Both the position numbers and the translations under genes were made by a program. Source: Microthrixaceae bacterium (GTDB taxonomy: Bacteria > Actinomycetota > Acidimicrobiia > Acidimicrobiales > Acidimicrobilacustridaceae). Taken from it: a stretch of DNA of 58,311 bases. The notes beneath the pieces are model-generated. The model was not told where the DNA came from and searched no databases. It saw only the letters and a list, made by a program, of their open reading frames with translations. Within the stretch, counting starts at the first letter, position 1. The number at the start of each line of letters is the position of its first letter. This document shows, piece after piece, positions 1,911-34,154 of the stretch. The stretch lies in contig CANFQA010000014.1 in the NCBI GenBank assembly GCA_947449015.1, positions 1 to 58,311 on the forward strand, given 5' to 3'.

Positions 1911-3257
1911 GTGAACACTGAATGGTCACCCACTTCTTGGCGGCACTTCCCTGCCGTACAGCAGCCCGAATGGGCTGATCCGCTTGAGCTTGAACGCGTC
2001 GTTGCCCACCTGAGTTCACTTCCGCCTCTCGTCTTTGCAGGTGAGGCGCGGCGTCTCACCACTGATCTCGGTCGTGTGGCCGCCGGCGAAGCCTTCCTTC
2101 TACAAGCCGGAGACTGCGCCGAATCCTTCGACTCGTTCTCCGCTGATTCAATCCGCGACAAGCTCAAGGTCATCCTTCAGATGGCAGTCGTGCTGATGTA
2201 CTCCTCCGGTGTGCCGGTCGTGAAGGTCGGCCGCATCGCCGGTCAGTTCGCAAAGCCTCGGTCGGCTTCTAACGAGACAATCGACGGCGTCACACTCCCG
2301 TCTTTCCGCGGTCACATGGTCAACGACATCGGCTTCGATGCCGAGTCCCGTCGGGCCGATCCGAACAGACTCGTTACCGCCTACCACCAGTCCGCGTCGA
2401 CGTTGAATCTTGTTCGCGCCTTCGCGAAGGGCGGCTTCGGCGATCTTTCTCGGGTACACGCGTGGAACCAACAGTTCGTATCCTCGAGTGCCGAGGGTCA
2501 GCGCTACGAGGAAGTTGCTTCAGGTATCGACCGCACGCTGCGCTTCATGGCTGCCTGCGGCATAAACACCGAGGCAACCCCCCAGTTACACACCGTCGAT
2601 GTCTCTACGAGTCACGAGGCGCTGATTCTCGGCTACGAGGAGGCCCTTACCCGCCAGGATTCACTCACGGGCGACTGGTACGACTGTTCAGCCCACATGC
2701 TGTGGATCGGCGAACGCACACGTCAGCTCGACGGCGCCCATGTCCACTTCCTGTCGGGAGTGCAGAATCCACTCGGATGCAAGGTCGGACCGTCGGTCAC
2801 GCCCGACGATGTCCTCGGCCTCTGCGAGGCGCTCAACCCCGAGCGGATTCCGGGTCGCCTCACCCTCATTAGTCGCATGGGAGCCGAGCACGTCGAAACT
2901 GCGCTTCCACCGTTGTTGCGAGCGGTCAAAGACGCAGGTCATCCCGTGGCCTGGGCCTGTGACCCCATGCATGGAAACACCTTCACCGCCCCCAGCGGTC
3001 GCAAGACCCGCCACTTCGACGCTGTGCTCGCGGAGATCGCAGGATTCTTCAGCGCCCATCGCTCGGTAGGCACGTGGCCCGGTGGGGTCCATATCGAGCT
3101 CACGGGTGAAGACGTCACCGAATGCCTCGGTGGCGCCGAGGAGATCCTCGACGCCGATCTCGATACCCGTTACGAGACCATGTGCGACCCTCGACTCAAT
3201 GGACGTCAATCGCTCGACCTTGCCTTCAGGGTCGCCGAACTGCTTCATCGCCCCTGA
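1911..3257 (+). CDS. aroG: Class II 3-deoxy-7-phosphoheptulonate (DAHP) synthase
   Basis: Condenses phosphoenolpyruvate and erythrose 4-phosphate, the first step of the shikimate pathway. The 448-aa length matches the class II (plant/actinobacterial) type, not the roughly 350-aa class I enzyme. Likely metal ligands by comparison with the Mycobacterium enzyme are the Cys in QAGDCAESF, the His in DPMHGNT, the Glu in HIELTGEDVTEC and the Asp in TMCDPRLNG. KVGRIAGQFAKPRS is the substrate-binding loop. The start is a GTG at 1911, with no better alternative. It lies 59 nt after the sigma-factor stop on the same strand and converges on the CoxE-like gene. Confidence 0.95.
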   Translation: MNTEWSPTSWRHFPAVQQPEWADPLELERVVAHLSSLPPLVFAGEARRLTTDLGRVAAGEAFLLQAGDCAESFDSFSADSIRDKLKVILQMAVVLMYSSGVPVVKVGRIAGQFAKPRSASNETIDGVTLPSFRGHMVNDIGFDAESRRADPNRLVTAYHQSASTLNLVRAFAKGGFGDLSRVHAWNQQFVSSSAEGQRYEEVASGIDRTLRFMAACGINTEATPQLHTVDVSTSHEALILGYEEALTRQDSLTGDWYDCSAHMLWIGERTRQLDGAHVHFLSGVQNPLGCKVGPSVTPDDVLGLCEALNPERIPGRLTLISRMGAEHVETALPPLLRAVKDAGHPVAWACDPMHGNTFTAPSGRKTRHFDAVLAEIAGFFSAHRSVGTWPGGVHIELTGEDVTECLGGAEEILDADLDTRYETMCDPRLNGRQSLDLAFRVAELLHRP

Positions 3258-3300
3258 TCTAAGCCCCTGATATCGGAGCCTGATCTCAGAGCCGGAACGA
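3250..3300. repeat. Degenerate tandem array, 12-13-nt units, over the aroG stop
   Basis: Units at 3250-3261, 3262-3274, 3275-3287 and 3288-3300 share a core like gcccctgatct / gagcctgatctc. The array covers the 3' end of aroG and fills the gap to the convergent gene. It resembles the array after murJ. Confidence 0.4.
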
Positions 3301-3301
3301 A

Positions 3302-4765
3302 CTAGTCGAGGACCTCGACGAACTTCTCGAGTTGGCGGAGATTGCGACATTCGTAGGTGCCATCGCAGTGCACGCCATACTCGCCAACGATGGAATCACC
3401 AGTGTCCCAATAGGCCTTCGGTTCAGGGTTCAACCAGTACACGTGACGTGCTTTCTTGCGCATCTCGCCAACGACCCAAGCCTGCGAGGAGTGGTAATTG
3501 TTCCTCGCATCTCCAAGGATGAGAACCGTGGTCTTTGGGCTGATCTCGCGCCCGTAACGCTCCCAGAAAACCTCGAATGCGTGGCCGTAATCAGAATGAC
3601 CATCAACCCACACAACGTCGGCTTCGGTGTTGACGCGGTGAATCGCCACTGAGATGTCTTCGACCCCTTCGAAGAATTTTGTGACTTCATCGATTCCGTC
3701 GATGAACACGAACGACCTCACTCGTGAGAACTGTCCCGAAATTGCGTAGACCAACTGCAGCGTGAATCGCGCAAACGCAGCGACCGAACCGGAAATGTCG
3801 GCAACGACGAAGATCTCCGGCTTGGCGGGACGCGGATAGCGGAACTTCGGATCCACGGGCACGCCGCCGTAGCTCAGAGAGTGACGAACGGTGTTGCGGA
3901 AGTCGAGTGGACCTTTCCGTCCGTGTCGACGCTTCCGGGCAAGACGAACCGCAAGTTTCCGGGTGAGCGGGTAGATCGCCTTGCGAAGACTCATGAGTTC
4001 CTCGCGGCTGGCGTGCATGAAATCAACGTCTTCGGGAAGCGGCTTGCGCAGCGTCTTGGCCATTGCCTCGACGCCACGGTCGGCCACAAGTCGCCTCCGG
4101 ATCTCAGCCTCGATTTCCTGCTTGAGTCGATCGACGCGCGATTCGAACTCGTCCTTTTCGAGCCGCTCTTCAAGCGGGGTCAGCGGCTCAGGAGACTCCT
4201 CACGCGCCTGCGACATCAACTGCTCGAGCACGTTGTCGAGGTCAAGGTTGCGCAGGGTGCGGTAGAGGTAATAGGTGCCGCCGACCGGTCGACCGGGCTC
4301 CATCCCGGCGTATCGGGTCACTGCTTGGCGGGCGAGCGCTTTCATCATCGCCTCATCGCCCTTCTGGAGGGCTTTGAAGAGCATCTCGGCCATCTGCTCG
4401 GGGGTCAGCGCTTCTCCCCCGCCGCCACCGGTGCCAGCTCCGGCTGCCTCAGGATTGGCCGCGGTGTCGTCATCGTCGAGTTCGAGAGGCTCATCGGATC
4501 CGCCAAGGGCATATCCCGGTCCACGCAGTGAGAAATAGACCTCGAACACTGTCTCGAACGCCCGCCAGTGTGCGTTGTTCTTCACCAGCGTGGCGGCAAG
4601 GGCGTACTTGAACGCGTTTCTATCCTCGATCGGGATATGAATGATTGCCTGCATGGCGTCGAGGTTTTCGGTGAGGCTCACCGGGAGACCAGCAGCACGC
4701 AGTTCGACAATGAACCCGGTGAGAAGGTCAAGCATCGAGCCGTCGGACGACATCGTGGCAGTCAT
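3302..4765 (-). CDS. VWA domain protein, CoxE-like
   Basis: A 487-aa protein with a C-terminal von Willebrand A domain. The metal-ion-dependent adhesion site begins VADISGSVAAF (D323, S325, S327). The N-terminal 80 residues look like the CoxE family, followed by an acidic/Gly linker at about 90-120 and a charged helical region (190-290). CoxE-like proteins pair with MoxR/CoxD AAA+ ATPases and act as metal-centre insertion or remodelling partners in known cases such as CO dehydrogenase maturation. The MoxR gene lies 7 nt upstream on the same strand, so the two form a unit. No cox structural genes are present here, so the client protein is unknown. Confidence 0.85.
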   Translation of the reverse strand: MTATMSSDGSMLDLLTGFIVELRAAGLPVSLTENLDAMQAIIHIPIEDRNAFKYALAATLVKNNAHWRAFETVFEVYFSLRGPGYALGGSDEPLELDDDDTAANPEAAGAGTGGGGGEALTPEQMAEMLFKALQKGDEAMMKALARQAVTRYAGMEPGRPVGGTYYLYRTLRNLDLDNVLEQLMSQAREESPEPLTPLEERLEKDEFESRVDRLKQEIEAEIRRRLVADRGVEAMAKTLRKPLPEDVDFMHASREELMSLRKAIYPLTRKLAVRLARKRRHGRKGPLDFRNTVRHSLSYGGVPVDPKFRYPRPAKPEIFVVADISGSVAAFARFTLQLVYAISGQFSRVRSFVFIDGIDEVTKFFEGVEDISVAIHRVNTEADVVWVDGHSDYGHAFEVFWERYGREISPKTTVLILGDARNNYHSSQAWVVGEMRKKARHVYWLNPEPKAYWDTGDSIVGEYGVHCDGTYECRNLRQLEKFVEVLD

Positions 4766-4772
4766 CAGCGAA

Positions 4773-5675
4773 TCACGAGGTGCGCGGAACGCCGGGACGA
4801 CGCTGGGTGGTGTCAGCGGAAAGTTCTTTCGTGGCTCGGGTTATGTCGCTCTGATACTTCAGAAGAATATTCAGCGTCTCGATTGCATCTGCTTCGGTGA
4901 TCGAATCGACACCAAGCATGAGCAATGTGCGAGCCCAATCAATGGTCTCCGAGACTGAAGGCGACTTCTTGAGCTCAAGTTGTCGGATCGATCGAACAAT
5001 TCGAGTGACCTGATCAGCCAAGCTGTCGGTGATCTCAGGCACTCTGGTGAGAACGATCTCCTTCTCACGCTCCATGTCGGGATAGTCGATATGGAGGAAA
5101 AGGCAACGACGCTTCAAAGCCTCAGAGAGCTCGCGGGTGTTGTTCGAGGTAAGGAACACCATAGGAATTTGTTTCGCCGTGATGGTGCCGAGTTCAGGGA
5201 TCGAAACCTGATAATCGGAAAGAATCTCGAGGAGCAGAGCCTCGGTCTCAATCTCGACACGATCAACCTCGTCGATGAGCAACACAACCGGGTCATCGGA
5301 TCGGATTGCCTCGAGCAGCGGTCGGGTGAGGAGAAACTCATCGGAGAAGATGTCGGTCTCGATGTCCTCCCAGGTCGACTCATTGTTTCGTTCGGCTTGG
5401 ATGCGAAGAAGTTGCTTCTTGTAGTTCCACTCGTACAGCGCCTTGGATTCGTCCAACCCCTCGTAACACTGGAGACGGATGAGGCGGGCACCGAGGATTT
5501 CAGCCACCGACTTCGCCAACTGTGTCTTGCCAGTACCGGCTGGACCTTCGACCAAGATCGGCTTCCCGAGTCGGTCAGCAAGGAAAACCACACCGGCAAT
5601 CGCATCGTCGGAGAGGTAGTCGACGTCGCGGAGTCGGGCACGGACGGAAGTGGGTGACTCGAATCGGAAATCCAT
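4773..5675 (-). CDS. MoxR-family AAA+ ATPase (CoxD-like)
   Basis: About 300 aa from the ATG at 5675 (MDFRFESPTS). The Walker A motif GPAGTGKT is at 44-51, the Walker B VLLIDE at about 131-136, and an arginine-rich sensor region follows (ALKRRCLFLHIDYP). MoxR ATPases act as chaperone-like remodelers with VWA partners, and the adjacent downstream gene encodes one. The frame continues upstream to 5777, overlapping proA, and also has an ATG at 5696. I chose 5675 because family homology begins there and it leaves a 76-nt gap after proA. Confidence 0.88.
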   Translation of the reverse strand: MDFRFESPTSVRARLRDVDYLSDDAIAGVVFLADRLGKPILVEGPAGTGKTQLAKSVAEILGARLIRLQCYEGLDESKALYEWNYKKQLLRIQAERNNESTWEDIETDIFSDEFLLTRPLLEAIRSDDPVVLLIDEVDRVEIETEALLLEILSDYQVSIPELGTITAKQIPMVFLTSNNTRELSEALKRRCLFLHIDYPDMEREKEIVLTRVPEITDSLADQVTRIVRSIRQLELKKSPSVSETIDWARTLLMLGVDSITEADAIETLNILLKYQSDITRATKELSADTTQRRPGVPRTS

Positions 5676-5751
5676 TCGGTGGAACTTATCCCGCATCGGC
5701 GGACTGGCCCGATTCGGCGGCCCACAGACCGGAATCGGCAGCGGACCAGGC

Positions 5752-7059
5752 TCAGCCCCGAGTCTGACCATCTCCACGCACGATGAACTTCACGCAGGTC
5801 AGCTCACGCAGGCCCATCGGTCCGCGGGCATGAAGTTTCTGGGTGGAGATACCGATTTCGGCACCGAAGCCGAACTCCTCGCCGTCGACGAATCGGGTCG
5901 AGGCATTGACCAGAACCGCAGCAGCATCGACTTCAGCAGTGAAGCGGTCAGCCGTGGCCAGAGAGCGAGTAACGATGGCCTCGGAGTGCCCAGATCCGTA
6001 GGTGGCGATGTGATCGATGGCCTCATCAAGACCGCTGACGATTTTGACTGCCAAGCGGAGATCAAGGAATTCAGTGCTCCATGCCGCTTCATCGGCCGGA
6101 GTTGCCCCGGGAAGAAGTGCGGCGGCGAGGGGGTCAGCGATGAGCTCAACTCCTTCGAGGGCCTTTGCCGCGAGAGGCAGAAAGGCTTCGGCGACAGAGG
6201 CATGGACAAGCAATGTCTCAGCGGCGTTGCACACCGACGGCCGTTGGGTTTTGGCGTTGACAATGATGGCGACTGCCATCGCAAGATCGGCTTCGGCGTC
6301 GACATAGACGTGGCAGTTGCCGTCACCATCAATGACGTACGGAACGGTTGCGTTGTCGAGGATTGACCGGATGAGCGAGGGGCCGCCGCGCGGAATCAAA
6401 CAGTCGACGTAGGCACGCTGGCGCATGAACTCAACCGCAGCCTCGCGGCTCACGTCCTCGACAAGGATGACGGAATCGGCGGGGAGACCAACCGAAGCGA
6501 TCGCTTCGCGCAGGATTGATGCGATGACAATATTGGAGCGAATGGCCCCCGAAGAACCGCGTAGAAAAGCTGCGTTGCCTGATTTCAGGCAAAGACCTGC
6601 AGCGTCAGAGGTCACGTTGGGACGGTTCTCGTAAATGATCGCCACAACCCCGAGAGGGACCCTGACCCGCGTGATGCGAAGCCCGTTGGGCCGAACCCAA
6701 CCGTCAAGCACCTCACCAACCGGATCGGGAAGATCAGCGACCTGCCGCAACCCTGCAGCCATCGAAGCCACCCGATCAGCATTCAGACGAAGACGATCAA
6801 TCACAGTGGCCGAGACACCTTCAGACTCTGCCGCGGCAACATCAGCAGCGTTCGCGGCAAGCACCTCGTCGGTTCTTGCCACCAGCAGTGCGGCGCTGGC
6901 ACGCAACGCGTCGTTCTTCTGGGAGGTCGGGGCATTTGCGAGCACTCTCGATGCCGCTTTTGCTCGGCGGCCGAGATCCGCTATTTGGGCGCCCATGGAA
7001 CCTGGGGCGGAGGTCTCGCCCGTCGAGGCATCAGTATTCGGCAGAGTTGTCACGGTCAT
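5752..7059 (-). CDS. proA: Gamma-glutamyl phosphate reductase
   Basis: NADPH-dependent reduction of gamma-glutamyl phosphate to glutamate semialdehyde, the second step of proline synthesis. The 435-aa length is normal. The family features VPLGVVAIIYENRPNVTSD, FLRGSSGAI and the catalytic-Cys segment NAKTQRPSVCNAAET are clear. The N-terminal 20 residues (Ser/Thr-rich) may be dispensable; a second Met at residue 22 is an alternative start. proB lies on the same strand but is separated by murJ on the opposite strand, so the usual proBA pair is split. Confidence 0.96.
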   Translation of the reverse strand: MTVTTLPNTDASTGETSAPGSMGAQIADLGRRAKAASRVLANAPTSQKNDALRASAALLVARTDEVLAANAADVAAAESEGVSATVIDRLRLNADRVASMAAGLRQVADLPDPVGEVLDGWVRPNGLRITRVRVPLGVVAIIYENRPNVTSDAAGLCLKSGNAAFLRGSSGAIRSNIVIASILREAIASVGLPADSVILVEDVSREAAVEFMRQRAYVDCLIPRGGPSLIRSILDNATVPYVIDGDGNCHVYVDAEADLAMAVAIIVNAKTQRPSVCNAAETLLVHASVAEAFLPLAAKALEGVELIADPLAAALLPGATPADEAAWSTEFLDLRLAVKIVSGLDEAIDHIATYGSGHSEAIVTRSLATADRFTAEVDAAAVLVNASTRFVDGEEFGFGAEIGISTQKLHARGPMGLRELTCVKFIVRGDGQTRG

Positions 7060-24027: not shown

Positions 24028-25323
24028 TCACCGACGGAGCGATTCCATCGCAGTTCGTGCCGCTCCGGCCACGTACAGCGAACCTGCGATGAGAACGGCG
24101 TCGTCGTCAGTGGAGATCGAGACTGCGCGGGCGACGGCTGTAGCGACATCGTCGATCGATTCCGTGAGCACCCCCATCGCTCGAGACACTGCGGCAATGT
24201 CTGATGCCGGGACTGCACGGGGGCTATCGGGGGTGCATGCGATGATCAGATCCATACTGCGAGCGCCAATCTGCTCCAGCATTTCGACAACATCACGTCC
24301 GCCGAGCATTCCGACCACCAGCACCCGGCGACCAGCGATATCAAACTCTTCTTCGAGGGTCCGTGCCGCCGCCAGCGCACCCTGAGGATTGTGTGCTCCG
24401 TCGATGATCACGAGAGGCGCATGGGAAACCACCTCGAAGCGTCCTGGCGATGTCACGCCGGCGAAAGCACTGTGCACAATGTCTTCGTCGAGCGAACGAC
24501 CGAAGAAGGCCTCGACCGCCGCGAGGGCACACGACGCATTCAACGACTGATGCCGGCCGTGGAGCGGCAGGTAGATATCTGAGGTCATGCCATTTGGTGT
24601 GCGCACGTCGAGTAGGTGCCCACCAAGCGCGGTTTGATCGCTGGCAAGGTCAAAATCCACACCGCGGACCCACATCTCGGCCGGACCTTCAGCTTCGAAG
24701 GCACCAAGCAACGATTGATCAGGCTCCCCCACCACTGCGAAGGATTCCGGCTTGATGATGCCCGCCTTCTCCGAGGCAATCGCTCCACGCCAGTCGCCAA
24801 CCCCATCAGTGTGGTCACGCCCGATGTTGGTGATCACCGCAACACCGGCGTCGCAGACGTTGGTGGCGTCGTAGCGGCCCAGCAGGCCGACTTCGACAAC
24901 GGCAACATCGACAGCACACTCAGCGAACCACAGCAGTGCTCCCGCCGTGAGAAGTTCGAAATAGGAGGGCTCGATTCCAGCCAGAGGCGCCAATCTCGCA
25001 AGCTCGGTAACAACTGACGCGAATTCATCGTCACCAATGGGCTCGCCGTTCCATGCAATTCGCTCGTTGATGCGCTGCAGGTGTGGGCTCGAATAGGTAC
25101 CGACCGAGAGTCCCGTCTCGGCAAGCAGCGAGGTGATCATCCGCGATGTCGAACCCTTCCCGTTGGTCCCAGTGACGTGGATGACCTTGAAAGACTTCTG
25201 GGGATCGCCCAGAACATCAACGAGCGCCCGCATCTGATCCAACGACAATCCATGAATGGACCCCGCCGATGCCTCGAGATTGATATGCCGGTCGAGGAAC
25301 CGGAGTGACTCGATGTAATTCAC
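24028..25323 (-). CDS. folC: Folylpolyglutamate synthase / dihydrofolate synthase
   Basis: 431 aa Mur-ligase-like enzyme that adds glutamate to (dihydro)folate. The P-loop TGTNGKGS is at about 51-58, with the family features YSSPHLQRINERI, TNIGRDHTDGVG and IIDGAHNPQGALAAA. It lies 23 nt upstream of ndk and 34 nt downstream of clpX on the same strand, within the tig-clpP-clpX-folC-ndk run. No valS gene sits before it as happens in some actinobacteria. Confidence 0.95.
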   Translation of the reverse strand: MNYIESLRFLDRHINLEASAGSIHGLSLDQMRALVDVLGDPQKSFKVIHVTGTNGKGSTSRMITSLLAETGLSVGTYSSPHLQRINERIAWNGEPIGDDEFASVVTELARLAPLAGIEPSYFELLTAGALLWFAECAVDVAVVEVGLLGRYDATNVCDAGVAVITNIGRDHTDGVGDWRGAIASEKAGIIKPESFAVVGEPDQSLLGAFEAEGPAEMWVRGVDFDLASDQTALGGHLLDVRTPNGMTSDIYLPLHGRHQSLNASCALAAVEAFFGRSLDEDIVHSAFAGVTSPGRFEVVSHAPLVIIDGAHNPQGALAAARTLEEEFDIAGRRVLVVGMLGGRDVVEMLEQIGARSMDLIIACTPDSPRAVPASDIAAVSRAMGVLTESIDDVATAVARAVSISTDDDAVLIAGSLYVAGAARTAMESLRR

Positions 25324-28863: not shown

Positions 28864-28940
28864 CGGGGAATGGCGCAGCTTGGTAGCGCGCCTGCTTTGG
28901 GAGCAGGAGGCCGGGAGTTCGAATCTCCCTTCCCCGACCA
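28864..28940 (+). tRNA. tRNA-Pro (TGG)
   Basis: A complete cloverleaf can be drawn: acceptor cggggaa/ttccccg, D stem gcgc/gcgc, anticodon stem cctgc/gcagg around loop tttggga (anticodon TGG), and T arm gggag-ttcgaat-ctccc. CCA is encoded (28938-28940). It starts in the divergent gap from tig. Confidence 0.97.
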
Positions 28941-29005
28941 TCTCAGCAGTAGCATGCGACGGATTTCACAAGGGCGATCAGCAGGCACGAGCAAAAGGGG
29001 TCACC

Positions 29006-30268
29006 ATGACCGAGTCCGAGACCATGTCCGACACGAAGAGCGATGCCTTCTCCGGATCCGATCGTCCCACGGTGGGTACCTATGTCCGCTGGTTCGCCGC
29101 CGCGCTCTCCGTTGCGTCAGCAGCCATTCACTATGGCTATGCCCCTCATCATCTTCAGGATGACTGGGCTCATGGCTGGTTCTTCGTACTCATCGCCACT
29201 GCGCAACTTGGGTTTGCGTTCCTCGTTGTCACCCGACCCAGCCGCTTGCTCTGGGCTCTAGCTGCGCTGCTCAATATCGGCATCATTGGAACCTGGGTCG
29301 TGTCACGCACAGCGGGACTTCCGTTCGGGCCACAGGCGCTTCGCAAAGAGGCCGTGGGAACTGCAGATGTGGTTTCCACCATTCTCGAGGTCGCTGTCGT
29401 CCTCCTTGCAGTCGTCGCCATTTTCGCCCCCAAGCTCATGAATCGTGAACTACGAGATTCGTTGGGTGCGCGTTTCACCACTGGTGCACTGAGCGGCATT
29501 GCCCTTGCCGCCGCATTCGTCATGCTCACGCCCACGTACACCAACGCGCACGCAGCCGGCGGCCACACCCATGCCGCGGCCGGAGTTCTCACTGGGAACA
29601 CGCCCTGTGAACAGTCCGGAGCTGCCGCGTCGCCTGGCCAGGAGAACACCGACGCTGAAGGACACAGCCATCGCGGGCCCACCGCTCAGCAGCCGGTATC
29701 GGAAGCCGACCGTGAAACCCTCGTCACTCAGCAGCAGCAGGCTCGCCAGGTCGCACTTACCTATCCAACGGTCGCCGACGCTGAAGCCGCCGGCTACCGC
29801 TTGTCCACCGTGTACGTCTCATGCATCGGGGCGCATTACACCAACACCAAGTTGGCATCTCGCTTTGATCCGGCCCATCCCTCCGAGCTGCTCTACGACG
29901 GCACGAACCCTGACTCGAAGATCGTCGGACTGAGCTTCCTGGTATGGCATCCGAATGGCCCGCCGGAGGGATTCGCCGGACCGAATGATTCATGGCACCA
30001 GCACAACTTCAACGGCGGCCTCTGCTTGAAGGGCGGCGTCGTTGTCGGCGCAGAGGCTCTTTCCGACGCTGAATGCGCAGCTCGCGGAGGAGCGAAAATG
30101 GGACTCCAAGATATTTGGATGGTGCACGACTGGGTCGTTCCGGGTTGGGAATGCTCATGGGGAGTATTCGCCGGCGAATGTCCCGAACTTGGTGGCGTCA
30201 CCGGTGGCACTGCTTGGGACACGCAGGATGGCAACACCAAGGATCCGCTTCAGGCTCTCGGCAGCTGA
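29006..30268 (+). CDS. Polytopic membrane protein with His-rich extracytoplasmic domain
   Basis: 420 aa from the ATG at 29006, which has aaaagggg just upstream. The open frame extends back into tRNA-Pro but that part is not coding. Roughly five hydrophobic segments span about 25-175. Then comes a His-rich stretch (NAHAAGGHTHAAAG, EGHSHRG) and a 190-residue hydrophilic domain ending with MVHDWVVPGWECSWGVFAGECPE. Six Cys residues lie in this outer domain. His clusters and a run of Trp/His (FLVWHPNGP, SWHQHNFNGG) suggest metal binding, perhaps copper or zinc; that is inference. I do not recognise a named family. It stands alone between two tRNA genes. Confidence 0.85.
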   Translation: MTESETMSDTKSDAFSGSDRPTVGTYVRWFAAALSVASAAIHYGYAPHHLQDDWAHGWFFVLIATAQLGFAFLVVTRPSRLLWALAALLNIGIIGTWVVSRTAGLPFGPQALRKEAVGTADVVSTILEVAVVLLAVVAIFAPKLMNRELRDSLGARFTTGALSGIALAAAFVMLTPTYTNAHAAGGHTHAAAGVLTGNTPCEQSGAAASPGQENTDAEGHSHRGPTAQQPVSEADRETLVTQQQQARQVALTYPTVADAEAAGYRLSTVYVSCIGAHYTNTKLASRFDPAHPSELLYDGTNPDSKIVGLSFLVWHPNGPPEGFAGPNDSWHQHNFNGGLCLKGGVVVGAEALSDAECAARGGAKMGLQDIWMVHDWVVPGWECSWGVFAGECPELGGVTGGTAWDTQDGNTKDPLQALGS

Positions 30269-30345: not shown

Positions 30346-30420
30346 GCGGGTGTAGCTCAATGGCTAGAGCGCCGTCCTTCCAAGTCGGATACGCGGGTTC
30401 GACTCCCGTCACCCGCTCCA
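30346..30420 (+). tRNA. tRNA-Gly (TCC)
   Basis: Acceptor gcgggtg/cacccgc, D arm, anticodon loop cttccaa (TCC), T arm cgggt-tcgactc-ccgt type, encoded CCA. The anticodon stem ccgtc/gtcgg has a T-T mismatch at its fourth pair (30-40). Confidence 0.95.
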
Positions 30421-30519: not shown

Positions 30520-32082
30520 GTGCGAGTGACGTCTTTGGGCCATGCAGGAATGTTGATCGAAGCTGATGACGGTTCCATCGTCTGCGATCCGTGGTTCCTG
30601 CCGCAGTTCTTCGGCTCCTGGTTCGTCTTCCCCCGCAACGATCAATTGGACAGCACACTTCTGAGCCGTGTGTGCGCGCCCGATTTCCTCTTCATCTCCC
30701 ATATCCATGCAGATCATCTCGACGAGCAGTGGCTACTGGAGAACATGGACAAGGGGGTCACCGTCCTGCTTCCGGACTTCCCCACCGGTGAACTCGAGCG
30801 AACCCTTCGCAACCTCGGATTCAGCCATTTTCTCCACACCACCGATCAGCAGGAGATCACCCTTCGTGGGAGCCTGGTCGTTGCCATACATACCGAAACA
30901 AGCATCACTGATGGTCCCGGGGGCGACTCTGCCATCGTCGTGAGCGATGGTTCTGCGCGCATCGTGAACCAAAACGACTGTCGGACCAACGACCTTGGCG
31001 CACTTCGTCAGCACGGTCCCGTCGACCTTCATTGGCTTCAATACAGCGGGGCTATCTGGTATCCAATGGTCTACGAGGAGTCTCCCGAGCAGATGCGGGA
31101 GCTCGTCGATGCGAAGGTGGCCAGCCAGACCACGCGAGCAATGCGCTACGTGGAATCAATCGATGCCACCGCCGTTGTTCCCAGCGCCGGCCCGCCATGC
31201 TTCCTTGATCCGGACCTCTTCGGGTTCAACATGATCACTGGCGAAGAGTTGACGATCTTCAGCGATCAGCCCCGCTTTCTTGATGCACTCAGCAAGGCTG
31301 ACCGCAACGGCATTCTCGCCATTCCCGGAACCACGATCACGATCGACTCCGGAGCGCTCAGGATCGACCACTCCTTGCCCCCCGCTGAGATCGACGCGAT
31401 CTTCGCCGAGAAGGAGCAGTACCTGCGCTGTTACCAGCAGGACTGGACGCCGTGGCTCGATGCTCACCGAGCGACCTGGCTCCCGGCTACACCCGAGCTC
31501 CTTGCCACAGTGAGTAGCTGGTGGGAGCCGCTTATGGTCGCGGCGCCAACTGTCTGCGACGCGATCGGAGCATGTGTTTTGCTACGCCTCGGCGATCTCA
31601 ACATCATTCTCGACTTTCCTGCTCGCCAGGTGCGCCAGTGGCAGGGTGAGCCCGCTCCGTTCCGCTTCGAGATCCAACGAGAACTCGTCGAGACAGTCGT
31701 TGCTCGCCGAGCGCACGATTGGAGCAACGCGCTTTTCCTTTCCTGCAGATTCACTGCGTGGCGAGAAGGCCCCTTCAACGAATACGTCTACAACTTCTTC
31801 AAATCCCTCTCCGAGGAACGAATGGTGCGCACCGAGGCCGAAGCGAAACGAAAGCTCGACCCTGATCGGGGCGGGATCGCAGACGAAACCATCATCATCG
31901 GAGGCTACGAACTGCAACGCACCTGTCCGCATCGAGCCGCCGACCTCACGGTGTTCGGCGAAATCAGCGGAGATGACCTCGTCTGCACGCTGCACGGTTG
32001 GCGCTTCGACCTCGCCACAGGTGTCTGCCGCAATGCTGATGATCGATCGCTTCGGATTCGGCCCTGTCCTCAGCCCGACTGA
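30520..32082 (+). CDS. Metallo-beta-lactamase-fold protein with C-terminal Rieske [2Fe-2S] domain
   Basis: 520 aa from a GTG start. The N-terminal MBL fold opens TSLGHAGMLIEADDGSIVCDPWF and has the metal motif SHIHADHLDE (H61, H63, D65, H66), as in the UlaG-like branch. The middle (about 200-440) has no motif I recognise. The C-terminus is a Rieske domain with canonical ligands C469-P-H471 and C489-T-L-H492 separated by 17 residues. The pairing recalls CMP-N-acetylneuraminate hydroxylase, which also joins Rieske and MBL-like domains, there with the Rieske at the N-terminus. An oxygenase-type role on a sugar or other small molecule is inference. Convergent with the acyltransferase gene. Confidence 0.85.
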   Translation: MRVTSLGHAGMLIEADDGSIVCDPWFLPQFFGSWFVFPRNDQLDSTLLSRVCAPDFLFISHIHADHLDEQWLLENMDKGVTVLLPDFPTGELERTLRNLGFSHFLHTTDQQEITLRGSLVVAIHTETSITDGPGGDSAIVVSDGSARIVNQNDCRTNDLGALRQHGPVDLHWLQYSGAIWYPMVYEESPEQMRELVDAKVASQTTRAMRYVESIDATAVVPSAGPPCFLDPDLFGFNMITGEELTIFSDQPRFLDALSKADRNGILAIPGTTITIDSGALRIDHSLPPAEIDAIFAEKEQYLRCYQQDWTPWLDAHRATWLPATPELLATVSSWWEPLMVAAPTVCDAIGACVLLRLGDLNIILDFPARQVRQWQGEPAPFRFEIQRELVETVVARRAHDWSNALFLSCRFTAWREGPFNEYVYNFFKSLSEERMVRTEAEAKRKLDPDRGGIADETIIIGGYELQRTCPHRAADLTVFGEISGDDLVCTLHGWRFDLATGVCRNADDRSLRIRPCPQPD

Positions 32083-32101: not shown

Positions 32102-33100
32102 CTATCGACCTGCGTGACGAGACTGAGCAGCGCTCATAGCCGCAGCAACTGATCGATCGAGATGCAGCCATCGAGAGTCGAGCCACTCAACAAAGTGTTC
32201 GCCTTCGGGAATCGTTTTACGGTCCTGTAGTTCAAACACCACCTGGGCACGCACTGGACCGGCCGCAAGCCGGCGACGAATGCGCGAAAACGTGTCGAGG
32301 CCATCGAAACCGATATGCCACATGAGCGCGAGTTCCGCGTCCGCTGCAGCATCGAGAAGCGCCCGCGCTCCGGCTGGCTTGGGTGGCAGAAGGTGCTGCA
32401 AACCTTCCAGCCGATCTGAACGCTGCGGATCGCGGCGACGAATTCGATCTATCGAACTCACACGTTTCGAGTCGTTTGCTCGCGTCCCTTCCGGGAAAAT
32501 AACAGCAACGTCAGTGGGCTCGAGATCAACGGCAAGAGTGGCGATCCCTTCGAGTTCACGCGCTACTGCTGCGCTGGAGCGGTCAACGAAGTAGTTCGGC
32601 AGCCGCCGACCCACAATGTCGAGACAGGGGTCGAACGACAGTTCCTTCTTCAGCACATAGCGCGGAGTCCGTTTGGCGAGAGAGCCGAGTGCCCAGGCGC
32701 TCACGAGTGCATCTCCGAGACTGGCATGACGGCCGAACACAACAAGCGGGCCGGTTCCAAACGTGTCGGCTCCTCGTACTTCGATGATGAATCCACAGGT
32801 CAACCGCAGCGATCCAATGAGTCGTGCCGCCCACCAACGTTGCAGCGCATAGTTGGCTCGTCGATTACATGACTGCCCCACACACCAAAAGACAACGCTC
32901 GCAATCACTCCAGCAAGCTCCAGCCAACTCCACAGCAAGGCGAACGCAAGCAAGCGAACCGTTGGCAACCTGAAACGACCCTCAACGAGGTCGACGAAGG
33001 CGGCGATCGGAACCCACAACGGCAGCAAACCAAGAAGAAGCACAGCAGCGAGGCCCACCCCGCCGATCGTCACCGGACGCCGCAACCATGCGCTTGACAT
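32102..33100 (-). CDS. PlsC-like 1-acyl-glycerol-3-phosphate acyltransferase family protein
   Basis: 332 aa. Two or three N-terminal hydrophobic segments (about 11-75), then the acyltransferase motifs: block I FGRHASLGD (H125-x4-D130, catalytic) and block III VIFPEGTRAN (202-207). The predicted reaction is acyl transfer to a lysophospholipid or related alcohol at the membrane. The C-terminal third (220-330) has IDRIRRRDPQRSD and MWHIGFDGLD and resembles the actinobacterial long form, not the minimal PlsC. Divergent from the TauD-type gene, with about 90 nt between them. Confidence 0.85.
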   Translation of the reverse strand: MSSAWLRRPVTIGGVGLAAVLLLGLLPLWVPIAAFVDLVEGRFRLPTVRLLAFALLWSWLELAGVIASVVFWCVGQSCNRRANYALQRWWAARLIGSLRLTCGFIIEVRGADTFGTGPLVVFGRHASLGDALVSAWALGSLAKRTPRYVLKKELSFDPCLDIVGRRLPNYFVDRSSAAVARELEGIATLAVDLEPTDVAVIFPEGTRANDSKRVSSIDRIRRRDPQRSDRLEGLQHLLPPKPAGARALLDAAADAELALMWHIGFDGLDTFSRIRRRLAAGPVRAQVVFELQDRKTIPEGEHFVEWLDSRWLHLDRSVAAAMSAAQSRHAGR

Positions 33101-33191
33101 ATGGCGACAGTAGTTGCAGTCCCCCCTTTTGCGTGACCTTCCGGCGTTTGGCGAGGTACCGTAAACTCGCAGTCAACAAATGGGGGGAACT

Positions 33192-34154
33192 ATGACAGAC
33201 ACTGAGATTCTTGCCACCAAAGATCCGGGGCAGCGACTCGGCGCCATGCGCCACTCCCTTCCCGACTCAATCGTTCAGGTCGGACCTGTGACGCATCTGG
33301 CCGCAGAGCGCGAGCGACTCGCCGCGCTGAATTGGAACCACTTCACGGTCAACCAGTTGGGTTCCACCATCGGCGCTGAACTGATCGGCGTTGATCTCCG
33401 CGACGACCTCTCTGATGAGGTGATTGCGGAGATTCGCCAGGCACTCTTCGAGTTCAAAGTGATCTTTTTCAGGGATCAGCCGTTGAACCCCGACCAGCAT
33501 GTTGCCTTCGCTGCACGTTTCGGAGAGCTTGAAATACACCCGTTTATTCCATCCAATACCGGCCGCCCCGAACTTGTCCGCTTCGAGAAGTCCGCCGAAA
33601 CCGGCGGCTACGAGAATCTGTGGCATCACGATGTCACCTGGCGTTCCAGTCCATCCATGGGAGCGGTACTGCATGCTTTGGAAGTGCCACCAGTCGGCGG
33701 GGACACCCTCTTCTGCGACATGTACGCCGCATATGAAGGCTTGCCCGACGATGTCAAAGAACTCATTGAAGGACGCACCGCGATGCACGATTTCGTGAGG
33801 GCGTTTGGGGCGCAGGTTCCCGCCGAACGCAAACAAGAGATGCGCGAGATGTATCCGATGGTCGAGCATCCAATCGTTGTCACCCATGCCGACACTGGTC
33901 GACGACACCTCTACGTGAATCGAGTGTTCACCTCTCATATCGTCGGCATGGACAAGTCCGAATCCGATGAGTTACTCGATCTGCTGTGCTATCAGGCAGA
34001 GACCGTGGAGTATCAGGTGCGATTCAGTTGGCGGAAGGATTCGGTCGCGTTTTGGGACAACAGAGGGGCCCAGCACTATGCCTCGAGCGACTATTGGCCC
34101 CAGCGCAGAGTGATGGAGCGAGCCAGCGTTATGGGCGGAACCCCGCTCGCGTAA
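33192..34154 (+). CDS. TauD/TfdA-family Fe(II)/2-oxoglutarate dioxygenase
   Basis: 320 aa. The iron ligands are visible: HxD as H145-H-D147 in LWHHDVTW, and the distal His H295 in WDNRGAQHYASSDYW. Arg306/Arg310 (QRRVMER) are candidates for 2-oxoglutarate binding. FEFKVIFFRDQPL and VGGDTLFCDMYAAYEGL are typical family segments. About 45 residues precede the core. The ATG at 33192 sits 8 nt after a ggggg ribosome-binding stretch; an ATG at 33180 lies before it. Substrate unknown: sulfonates, phenoxyacids and alkyl sulfates are all possible for this family. Convergent with the MFS gene. Confidence 0.9.
   Translation: MTDTEILATKDPGQRLGAMRHSLPDSIVQVGPVTHLAAERERLAALNWNHFTVNQLGSTIGAELIGVDLRDDLSDEVIAEIRQALFEFKVIFFRDQPLNPDQHVAFAARFGELEIHPFIPSNTGRPELVRFEKSAETGGYENLWHHDVTWRSSPSMGAVLHALEVPPVGGDTLFCDMYAAYEGLPDDVKELIEGRTAMHDFVRAFGAQVPAERKQEMREMYPMVEHPIVVTHADTGRRHLYVNRVFTSHIVGMDKSESDELLDLLCYQAETVEYQVRFSWRKDSVAFWDNRGAQHYASSDYWPQRRVMERASVMGGTPLA

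Follow-up and report, generated by a model that had tools for sequence, protein, structure and literature searches.

A NamH-family protein with MBL, SCP2-like, and Rieske domains encoded in a divergent clade of Acidimicrobiia

The DNA analyzed here, referred to as the window, is a 58,311-nucleotide stretch of the Microthrixaceae bacterium assembly GCA_947449015.1 (contig CANFQA010000014.1). It contains a gene with a GTG start codon and no internal stop codons, whose 520-amino-acid product combines an N-terminal metallo-β-lactamase (MBL) domain, an SCP2-like domain, and a C-terminal Rieske domain (Table 1). The motif SHIHADHLDE (residues 60 to 69) and the four Rieske ligands had been recognized in a first-pass annotation of this protein, and all of them are found at the residues given there. 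The PlsC-like acyltransferase and TauD dioxygenase genes that it named as neighbors are likewise present. On the other side of the gene, a 462-amino-acid open reading frame (positions 28880 to 30268) starts within a tRNA-Pro gene (28864 to 28940) and is probably translated from a start codon further downstream.

Table 1. Features at and around the NamH-family locus, in window coordinates
Feature	Position	Strand	Basis
tRNA-Gly	30346-30420		Upstream of NamH-family gene
NamH-family gene (MBL - SCP2-like - Rieske)	30520-32082	+	Single ORF, 520 aa; Pfam
N-terminal MBL domain, about residues 1-283	30520..31368	+	Lactamase_B_3, model, fold search
HxHxDH metal motif, residues 61-66	30700..30717	+	Sequence, conservation
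H124-T-E126	30889..30897	+	H and E kept in window's clade, absent in mycobacterial NamH
D153	30976..30978	+	Aligned by profile with CmlA aspartate; 148/148 homologues
SCP2_Rv3818 (PF25451), residues 327-441	31498..31842	+	Pfam, 2.4e-43; SCP2 fold in predicted model
Rieske [2Fe-2S] domain match (PF00355), residues 466-507	31915..32040	+	Pfam, 1.3e-8, above cut-off
Rieske ligands C469, H471	31924..31932	+	148/148 homologues
Rieske ligands C489, H492	31984..31995	+	147/148 homologues, one gap
PF01553 acyltransferase	32102-33100	-	Pfam
TauD	33180-34154	+	Pfam

The Pfam match to Lactamase_B_3 covers residues 2 to 101 (E value, 1.3e-5; 25.6 bits versus a cut-off of 24), and the end of the MBL domain near residue 283 was taken from the secondary structure of the predicted model. 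The match to SCP2_Rv3818 scores 147.6 bits against a cut-off of 28.2, and the domain was recovered at the same place when the organism's own genome was searched. This assigns about half of the middle region, which had previously been left unassigned in full. No NCBIfam model scored above its cut-offs for the window protein.

To judge conservation, we chose rows by a phmmer search of the window protein against every locus. The 179 loci and the window gave 180 rows, with L140 omitted because its match is cut by the contig end and begins only at residue 111; removal of duplicates left 149 distinct sequences, and 148 were counted after omission of a fragment (L124). H61, H63, D65, H66, D68, D136, N152, D153, C469, and H471 are invariant in all 148, and D131 is kept in 147. 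Near-invariant histidines in the MBL domain are limited to H8, H61, H63, H66, and H171 (137/148). Both motifs lie in one open reading frame in 30/30 loci kept from the searches of the class and of the organism's own genome and in 30/30 further loci kept from the search of the phylum. Judged by the conservation of the ligands over 148 homologues, the pairing of the two motifs is not a product of chance.

Structure prediction and a Foldseek search, both suggested in the first-pass annotation, returned MBL, SCP2, and Rieske folds. The model of the full protein has a mean pLDDT of 90.7 and a pTM of 0.85. Its first Foldseek match in the PDB is FrsH (4.2e-11), practically tied with a Thermotoga MBL protein in third place (6.5e-11), and CmlA and NAPE-PLD are within the top ten; the top TM-scores of 0.33 to 0.37 are normalized by the whole query and reflect coverage of one domain. 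The VIA Z-scores lie close together, at 20.0 to 21.3 for hydrolases, 19.9 for CmlA (230 residues, 3.4 Å), and 18.9 for FrsH (228 residues, 3.0 Å), with matches that span model residues 1 to about 275 to 279. A separate model of residues 286 to 520 (pLDDT, 91.8; pTM, 0.73) matched SCP2 folds with a best Foldseek E value of 2.1e-4 and a Z-score of up to 9.6 (100 residues, 2.8 Å), as well as a Rieske-domain fold (4p1b_H; E value, 6.8e-3; 35% identity over 49 columns). Within this model, residues 451 to 520 matched Rieske-domain folds with Z-scores of 7.0 to 7.4 (62 to 68 residues, 2.3 to 2.9 Å); a Z-score below 8 may by itself reflect a common arrangement, and the independent evidence for a Rieske domain comes from the Pfam match and the ligands. 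The CxH/CxxH segment thus matches Rieske domains by sequence as well as by predicted fold. In sequence searches of the PDB, no chain matched over the whole window protein.

We conclude, with a probability of about 0.75, that the window protein is a NamH-family monooxygenase that hydroxylates a MurNAc precursor. The family assignment follows from the presence of SCP2_Rv3818, Rieske, and Lactamase_B_3 on one chain and in the order of NamH. In alignment A4, SCP2_Rv3818 and Rieske are present in 60/60 members and Lactamase_B_3 is present in 53/60. The connection to Rv3818 was made through the name of the Pfam family and through homologues from Rhodococcus, Nocardia, and a Mycobacterium-like genus rather than through the Rv3818 sequence itself. 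The Rhodococcus ruber and Nocardia farcinica homologues are 42.4% and 41.5% identical to the window protein, respectively, each covering 99% of it, and this full-length similarity supports the assignment, since both genera are described as possessing NamH in a review (PMC10234563). In the literature (PMC3605390, PMC6194230, PMC10050696), Rv3818 is identified as namH (in one paper, as the namH homologue), encoding the hydroxylase that converts N-acetyl to N-glycolyl muramic acid, and one paper gives it an N-terminal UlaG domain and a C-terminal Rieske domain. The order with MBL first and Rieske last is therefore that of an already characterized enzyme and is not new. The first-pass annotation had taken CMP-Neu5Ac hydroxylase (CMAH) for the only well-known relative with this pairing and proposed a new oxygenase; NamH displaces CMAH in that role, and the oxygenase part of the proposal is retained while the claim of newness is lost. 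The discovery of NamH is reportedly due to Raymond in 2005.

In the proposed reaction, the Rieske [2Fe-2S] domain would accept electrons singly from a reductase and hand them to a metal site, most likely iron, in the MBL domain. This site would activate O2, and the methyl group of the N-acetyl substituent would be hydroxylated on UDP-MurNAc or on a later UDP-muropeptide. Some of the peptidoglycan would then carry N-glycolylmuramic acid. The reaction and the use of O2 are taken from papers on NamH, which is said to act on UDP-MurNAc with molecular oxygen in the review cited above (PMC10234563); the gene, domains, ligands, family, and predicted fold come from this analysis.

When the MBL domain was searched as a profile, FrsH was the best match both with alignment A3 (2.5e-11) and with A4 (5e-9); CmlA was second with A3 (4.5e-6), and with A4 NAPE-PLD (6.3e-5) came just ahead of CmlA (9.6e-5). 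In a single-sequence search of the PDB, NAPE-PLD was the best match (5.4e-5) and FrsH scored 9e-4. The oxygenase reading is weakened by this competition from NAPE-PLD and other hydrolases in sequence and fold searches, and an MBL hydrolase carrying a regulatory or redox-sensing Rieske domain would fit the NAPE-PLD match and the Z-scores of up to 21.3 for metal-dependent hydrolases. Typical zinc MBL enzymes have a third and a last histidine ligand, and we did not find these among the near-invariant MBL-domain histidines of the 148 homologues, which makes the electron-coupled hydrolase suggested earlier less likely. Together with the fact that the characterized member of the family is an O2-dependent hydroxylase, the same histidines make a hydrolase with a regulatory or redox-sensing Rieske domain highly improbable.

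From the comparison with CmlA and FrsH, we infer that the MBL site of the NamH-family protein may be a diiron centre of their type, fed by the Rieske cluster; the site may alternatively be mononuclear. D153 aligns with a CmlA aspartate that we take to be D403, a bridging ligand. A second CmlA residue, E377, which is presumably a metal ligand and whose E377D mutant is named in a PDB title, aligns with S128 of the window protein and with alanine in mycobacterial NamH, as counted by hand in the profile alignment and assuming a two-residue numbering offset in 4jo0. On this alignment, in which the HxHxDH region also corresponds, the full set of CmlA diiron ligands appears not to be conserved; the last histidine of the set was not located. 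Replacement of E377 by E126 or H124 is an attractive idea that is unproven, as the profile alignment places E377 on S128. Among the matches listed, only the Rieske part of the protein matched chains of mononuclear-iron Rieske non-heme oxygenases. No open-licence PMC paper was found that joins CmlA-type diiron MBL enzymes to a Rieske domain or a diiron centre to a glycolyl-forming hydroxylase. We offer it as a rather doubtful conjecture that NamH-type proteins form a distinct class of oxygenases, in which a Rieske domain would feed a diiron MBL domain on the same chain with SCP2 between them, and that the pocket has been retooled in Acidimicrobiia (H124, E126), so that the product, a modified sugar precursor of the envelope, need not be N-glycolylmuramic acid.

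In a 77-row tree, the family splits with 100/100 support into clade A (31 rows), which comprises the window protein and Ilumatobacteraceae-type Acidimicrobiia, and clade B (46 rows), which includes the Mycobacterium-like genus, Rhodococcus, Nocardia, and Streptomyces as well as Thermoleophilaceae and Chloroflexi metagenome-assembled genomes (MAGs) and further families from the class to which the window belongs. The root was placed at the midpoint, and neither side is claimed to be ancestral. The same split was obtained at 95 SH-aLRT in a 132-row quick tree, from which the clade groups were taken; this tree omitted the partial rows L080, L125, L128, and L130 and most of L160 to L179, included a thinned set of Mycobacterium-like loci, and had L180 to L182 added. 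The 77-row tree is a further thinning of it, with L182 omitted. The window protein is on the opposite side of the 100/100 branch from Mycobacterium, Rhodococcus, and Nocardia, and we file it in the NamH-like family (PF25451), not in the mycobacterial-type NamH orthologue group. H124 is found in 64/65 and E126 in 63/65 clade A rows, while these positions hold I or V and L, respectively, in the 19 rows of the family that contains the Mycobacterium-like genus (f80); I129 is a further MBL-domain site that distinguishes the window's clade. Because of this branch and these conserved residues of its own, MurNAc is a substrate that we infer for the window protein rather than demonstrate.

The gene neighborhood was compared over 80 named loci, assigned by best BLASTP hit to tree rows (62 to clade A and 18 to clade B). 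Among the 57 clade A loci whose upstream part is longer than 600 bp, 49 carry a DUF2510 gene there on the same strand; it is missing at L080, L092, L094, L095, L097, L098, L121, and L138, three of which (L092, L094, and L098) fall with the window's genus. Of the 43 clade A loci whose upstream part exceeds 2 kb, 34 have an ABC ATPase gene, and of the 38 whose downstream part exceeds 4.5 kb, 19 have a gene for an L,D-transpeptidase (YkuD). The named clade B loci have neither DUF2510 (0/14) nor YkuD (0/9). At L091 (positions 2894 to 5953) and many other clade A loci, genes for a DUF6297-related permease, an ABC ATPase, and DUF2510 precede namH on the same strand. The permease was considered as a partner of NamH and set aside as not specific, being found in 63/296 genomes, 34 with and 29 without NamH; in the window's genome it sits on another contig (C20).

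In Rhodococcus ruber, genes for an N-acetylmuramoyl-L-alanine amidase, a HAD hydrolase, and an acyltransferase lie upstream of namH. At a threshold of 1e-5, the window has no match to DUF2510, YkuD, LacZ, the permease, or the mycobacterial HAD or PlsC proteins, and the gene context of the Rv3818 region is absent from it. Over the 179 loci, many too short to be informative, the window's acyltransferase was found at seven (L001, L020, L027, L092, L094, L098, and L177) and its TauD at L092, L098, and L177, with one further TauD match at L167. Apart from L167, these loci belong to the window's genus or to rows that group with it. An operon with the acyltransferase and TauD was therefore rejected, and the two genes, being local to the window's genus and its near kin, say nothing about function. 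Mycobacterium-like genomes and Rhodococcus also have an acyltransferase gene close to namH; the window's acyltransferase has no match among the Mycobacterium-like loci at 1e-5 and the mycobacterial one has none in the window, and we treat the occurrence in both groups as coincidence.

The MurT-GatD complex amidates D-isoglutamate of peptidoglycan. At the clade A locus L138, genes for MurT and a GatD-like GATase_3 protein (positions 55 to 1952) are divergent to namH (2009 to 3562), linking two modifications of peptidoglycan precursors at one locus. MurT also adjoins NamH at L170 and L056 (one genome), L057, and L158 in clade B; in all, MurT was matched at 1e-10 at only 5 loci in 4 genomes among those fetched, many of which are too short to show it. 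The organism's own genome encodes seven Mur-ligase middle domains, one of them in the gene at window positions 24028 to 25323.

These data can be read in two ways with regard to the substrate. The Ilumatobacteraceae-type clade might perform the same chemistry on another N-acylated nucleotide sugar or envelope precursor, as its own side of the 100/100 branch, its residues H124, E126, and I129, and its DUF2510 and ABC ATPase neighbors would allow. The MurNAc reading is weakened by the same branch and sites, by the small number of MurT loci, and by the absence of the Rv3818-region neighbors from the window. However, it is supported by the peptidoglycan genes, MurT and L,D-transpeptidase, beside NamH-family loci; L138 belongs to clade A itself, the metal- and cluster-type residues are common to both clades, and no genome of the class has two copies, and thus none has both clades. 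We consider another substrate unlikely, and the divergent clade A would, on the favored reading, have kept MurNAc.

The frequency of the MBL-Rieske order in Acidimicrobiia had been raised in the first-pass annotation. Of 296 genomes sampled from the class, 54 carry the family, each in exactly one copy; the organism's own genome has one copy. Since every positive genome of the class has one copy, none holds members of both clades, which fits one shared role but falls short of proof. In an overlapping sample of the phylum, 51 of 396 genomes were positive. In the Mycobacterium-like genus (that of G607), the family is present in 60/60 genomes and in one copy in 59/60. We call this genus Mycobacterium-like on the assumption that PPE genes are a mark of Mycobacterium; they were found in 6/6 tested members, with best E values of 2.6e-48 to 2.3e-68. 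A genome from another genus of the same family (G341) had eight weaker PPE matches (best, 1e-24), and G519 had none.

Most of the nearest named relatives, judged from the best 80 of at least 576, are MAGs whose titles read Ilumatobacteraceae, Acidimicrobiaceae, Acidimicrobiia, or simply actinobacteria. Some titles, such as Bifidobacterium breve and Acidobacteria, are probably wrong: the NamH loci of seven records titled Bifidobacterium breve (L092, L100, L102, L134, L135, L136, and L145) group with Acidimicrobiia, and these records are probably mislabeled MAGs. Three Streptomyces records (L146, L149, and L151) carry a clade B homologue, and Streptomyces sp. is listed among bacteria without namH in a review. 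An MBL protein of a haloarchaeal plasmid (L182, positions 5001 to 6425), 26% identical over 69% of the window protein and with no CxH motif, may be distantly related to the MBL part while lacking Rieske. Scattered NamH homologues outside Corynebacteriales, Rubrobacter included, are reported in a 2018 survey of 72 actinobacterial genomes, the main text of which does not mention Acidimicrobiia. We found no report of N-glycolyl muramic acid in Acidimicrobiia in the open-licence PMC literature, where absence carries little weight.

The architecture is thus a known one, encountered here in a divergent clade of little-studied actinobacteria. The presence of a NamH homologue leads us to predict N-glycolylated peptidoglycan in some of the Acidimicrobiia, and the naturally divergent sequences of clade A could help to locate the catalytic site of NamH. 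If true, the diiron-MBL hypothesis would bear on CMAH also.

Among the systems to which the window protein can be compared, NamH (Rv3818 and its orthologues) is the closest, with equal domains, order, and ligands, PF25451, and usually a single copy; the window protein differs in its separate 100/100 clade, its own residues around 124 to 129, and its gene neighborhood. CmlA and FrsH share the MBL fold, the HxHxDH region and D153 can be aligned with them, and FrsH is the top match of the MBL domain in both profile and Foldseek searches; however, their MBL part is at residues 251 to 532, no Rieske or SCP2 match to these chains was seen, and E377 is not conserved in the window protein. The MBL alkylsulfatases SdsA1 and Pisa1 are zinc hydrolases that are matched only via their C-terminal SCP2-like part, which is similar in fold to the middle domain described here (Z-scores of 7.4 to 8.4). 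CMAH has an N-terminal Rieske domain and a C-terminal MBL-like part, and it also converts N-acetyl to N-glycolyl on a nucleotide sugar. A CMAH-like CMP-sialic acid hydroxylase would agree with the NeuB-family gene in the window's own genome, but NeuB is absent from 8 of 10 tested gene-carrying genomes, five of which belong to the window's genus. With NeuB in only 2 of 10, the window's own included, there is no need to invoke sialic acid as a substrate, and this is the least probable of the readings weighed here. CMAH is described in the literature as distantly homologous to the prokaryotic genes for the synthesis of UDP-N-glycolylmuramic acid; it was compared by description rather than by sequence, and with the order of MBL, SCP2, and Rieske in the window protein being that of NamH and opposite to that of CMAH, CMAH is not its nearest relative.
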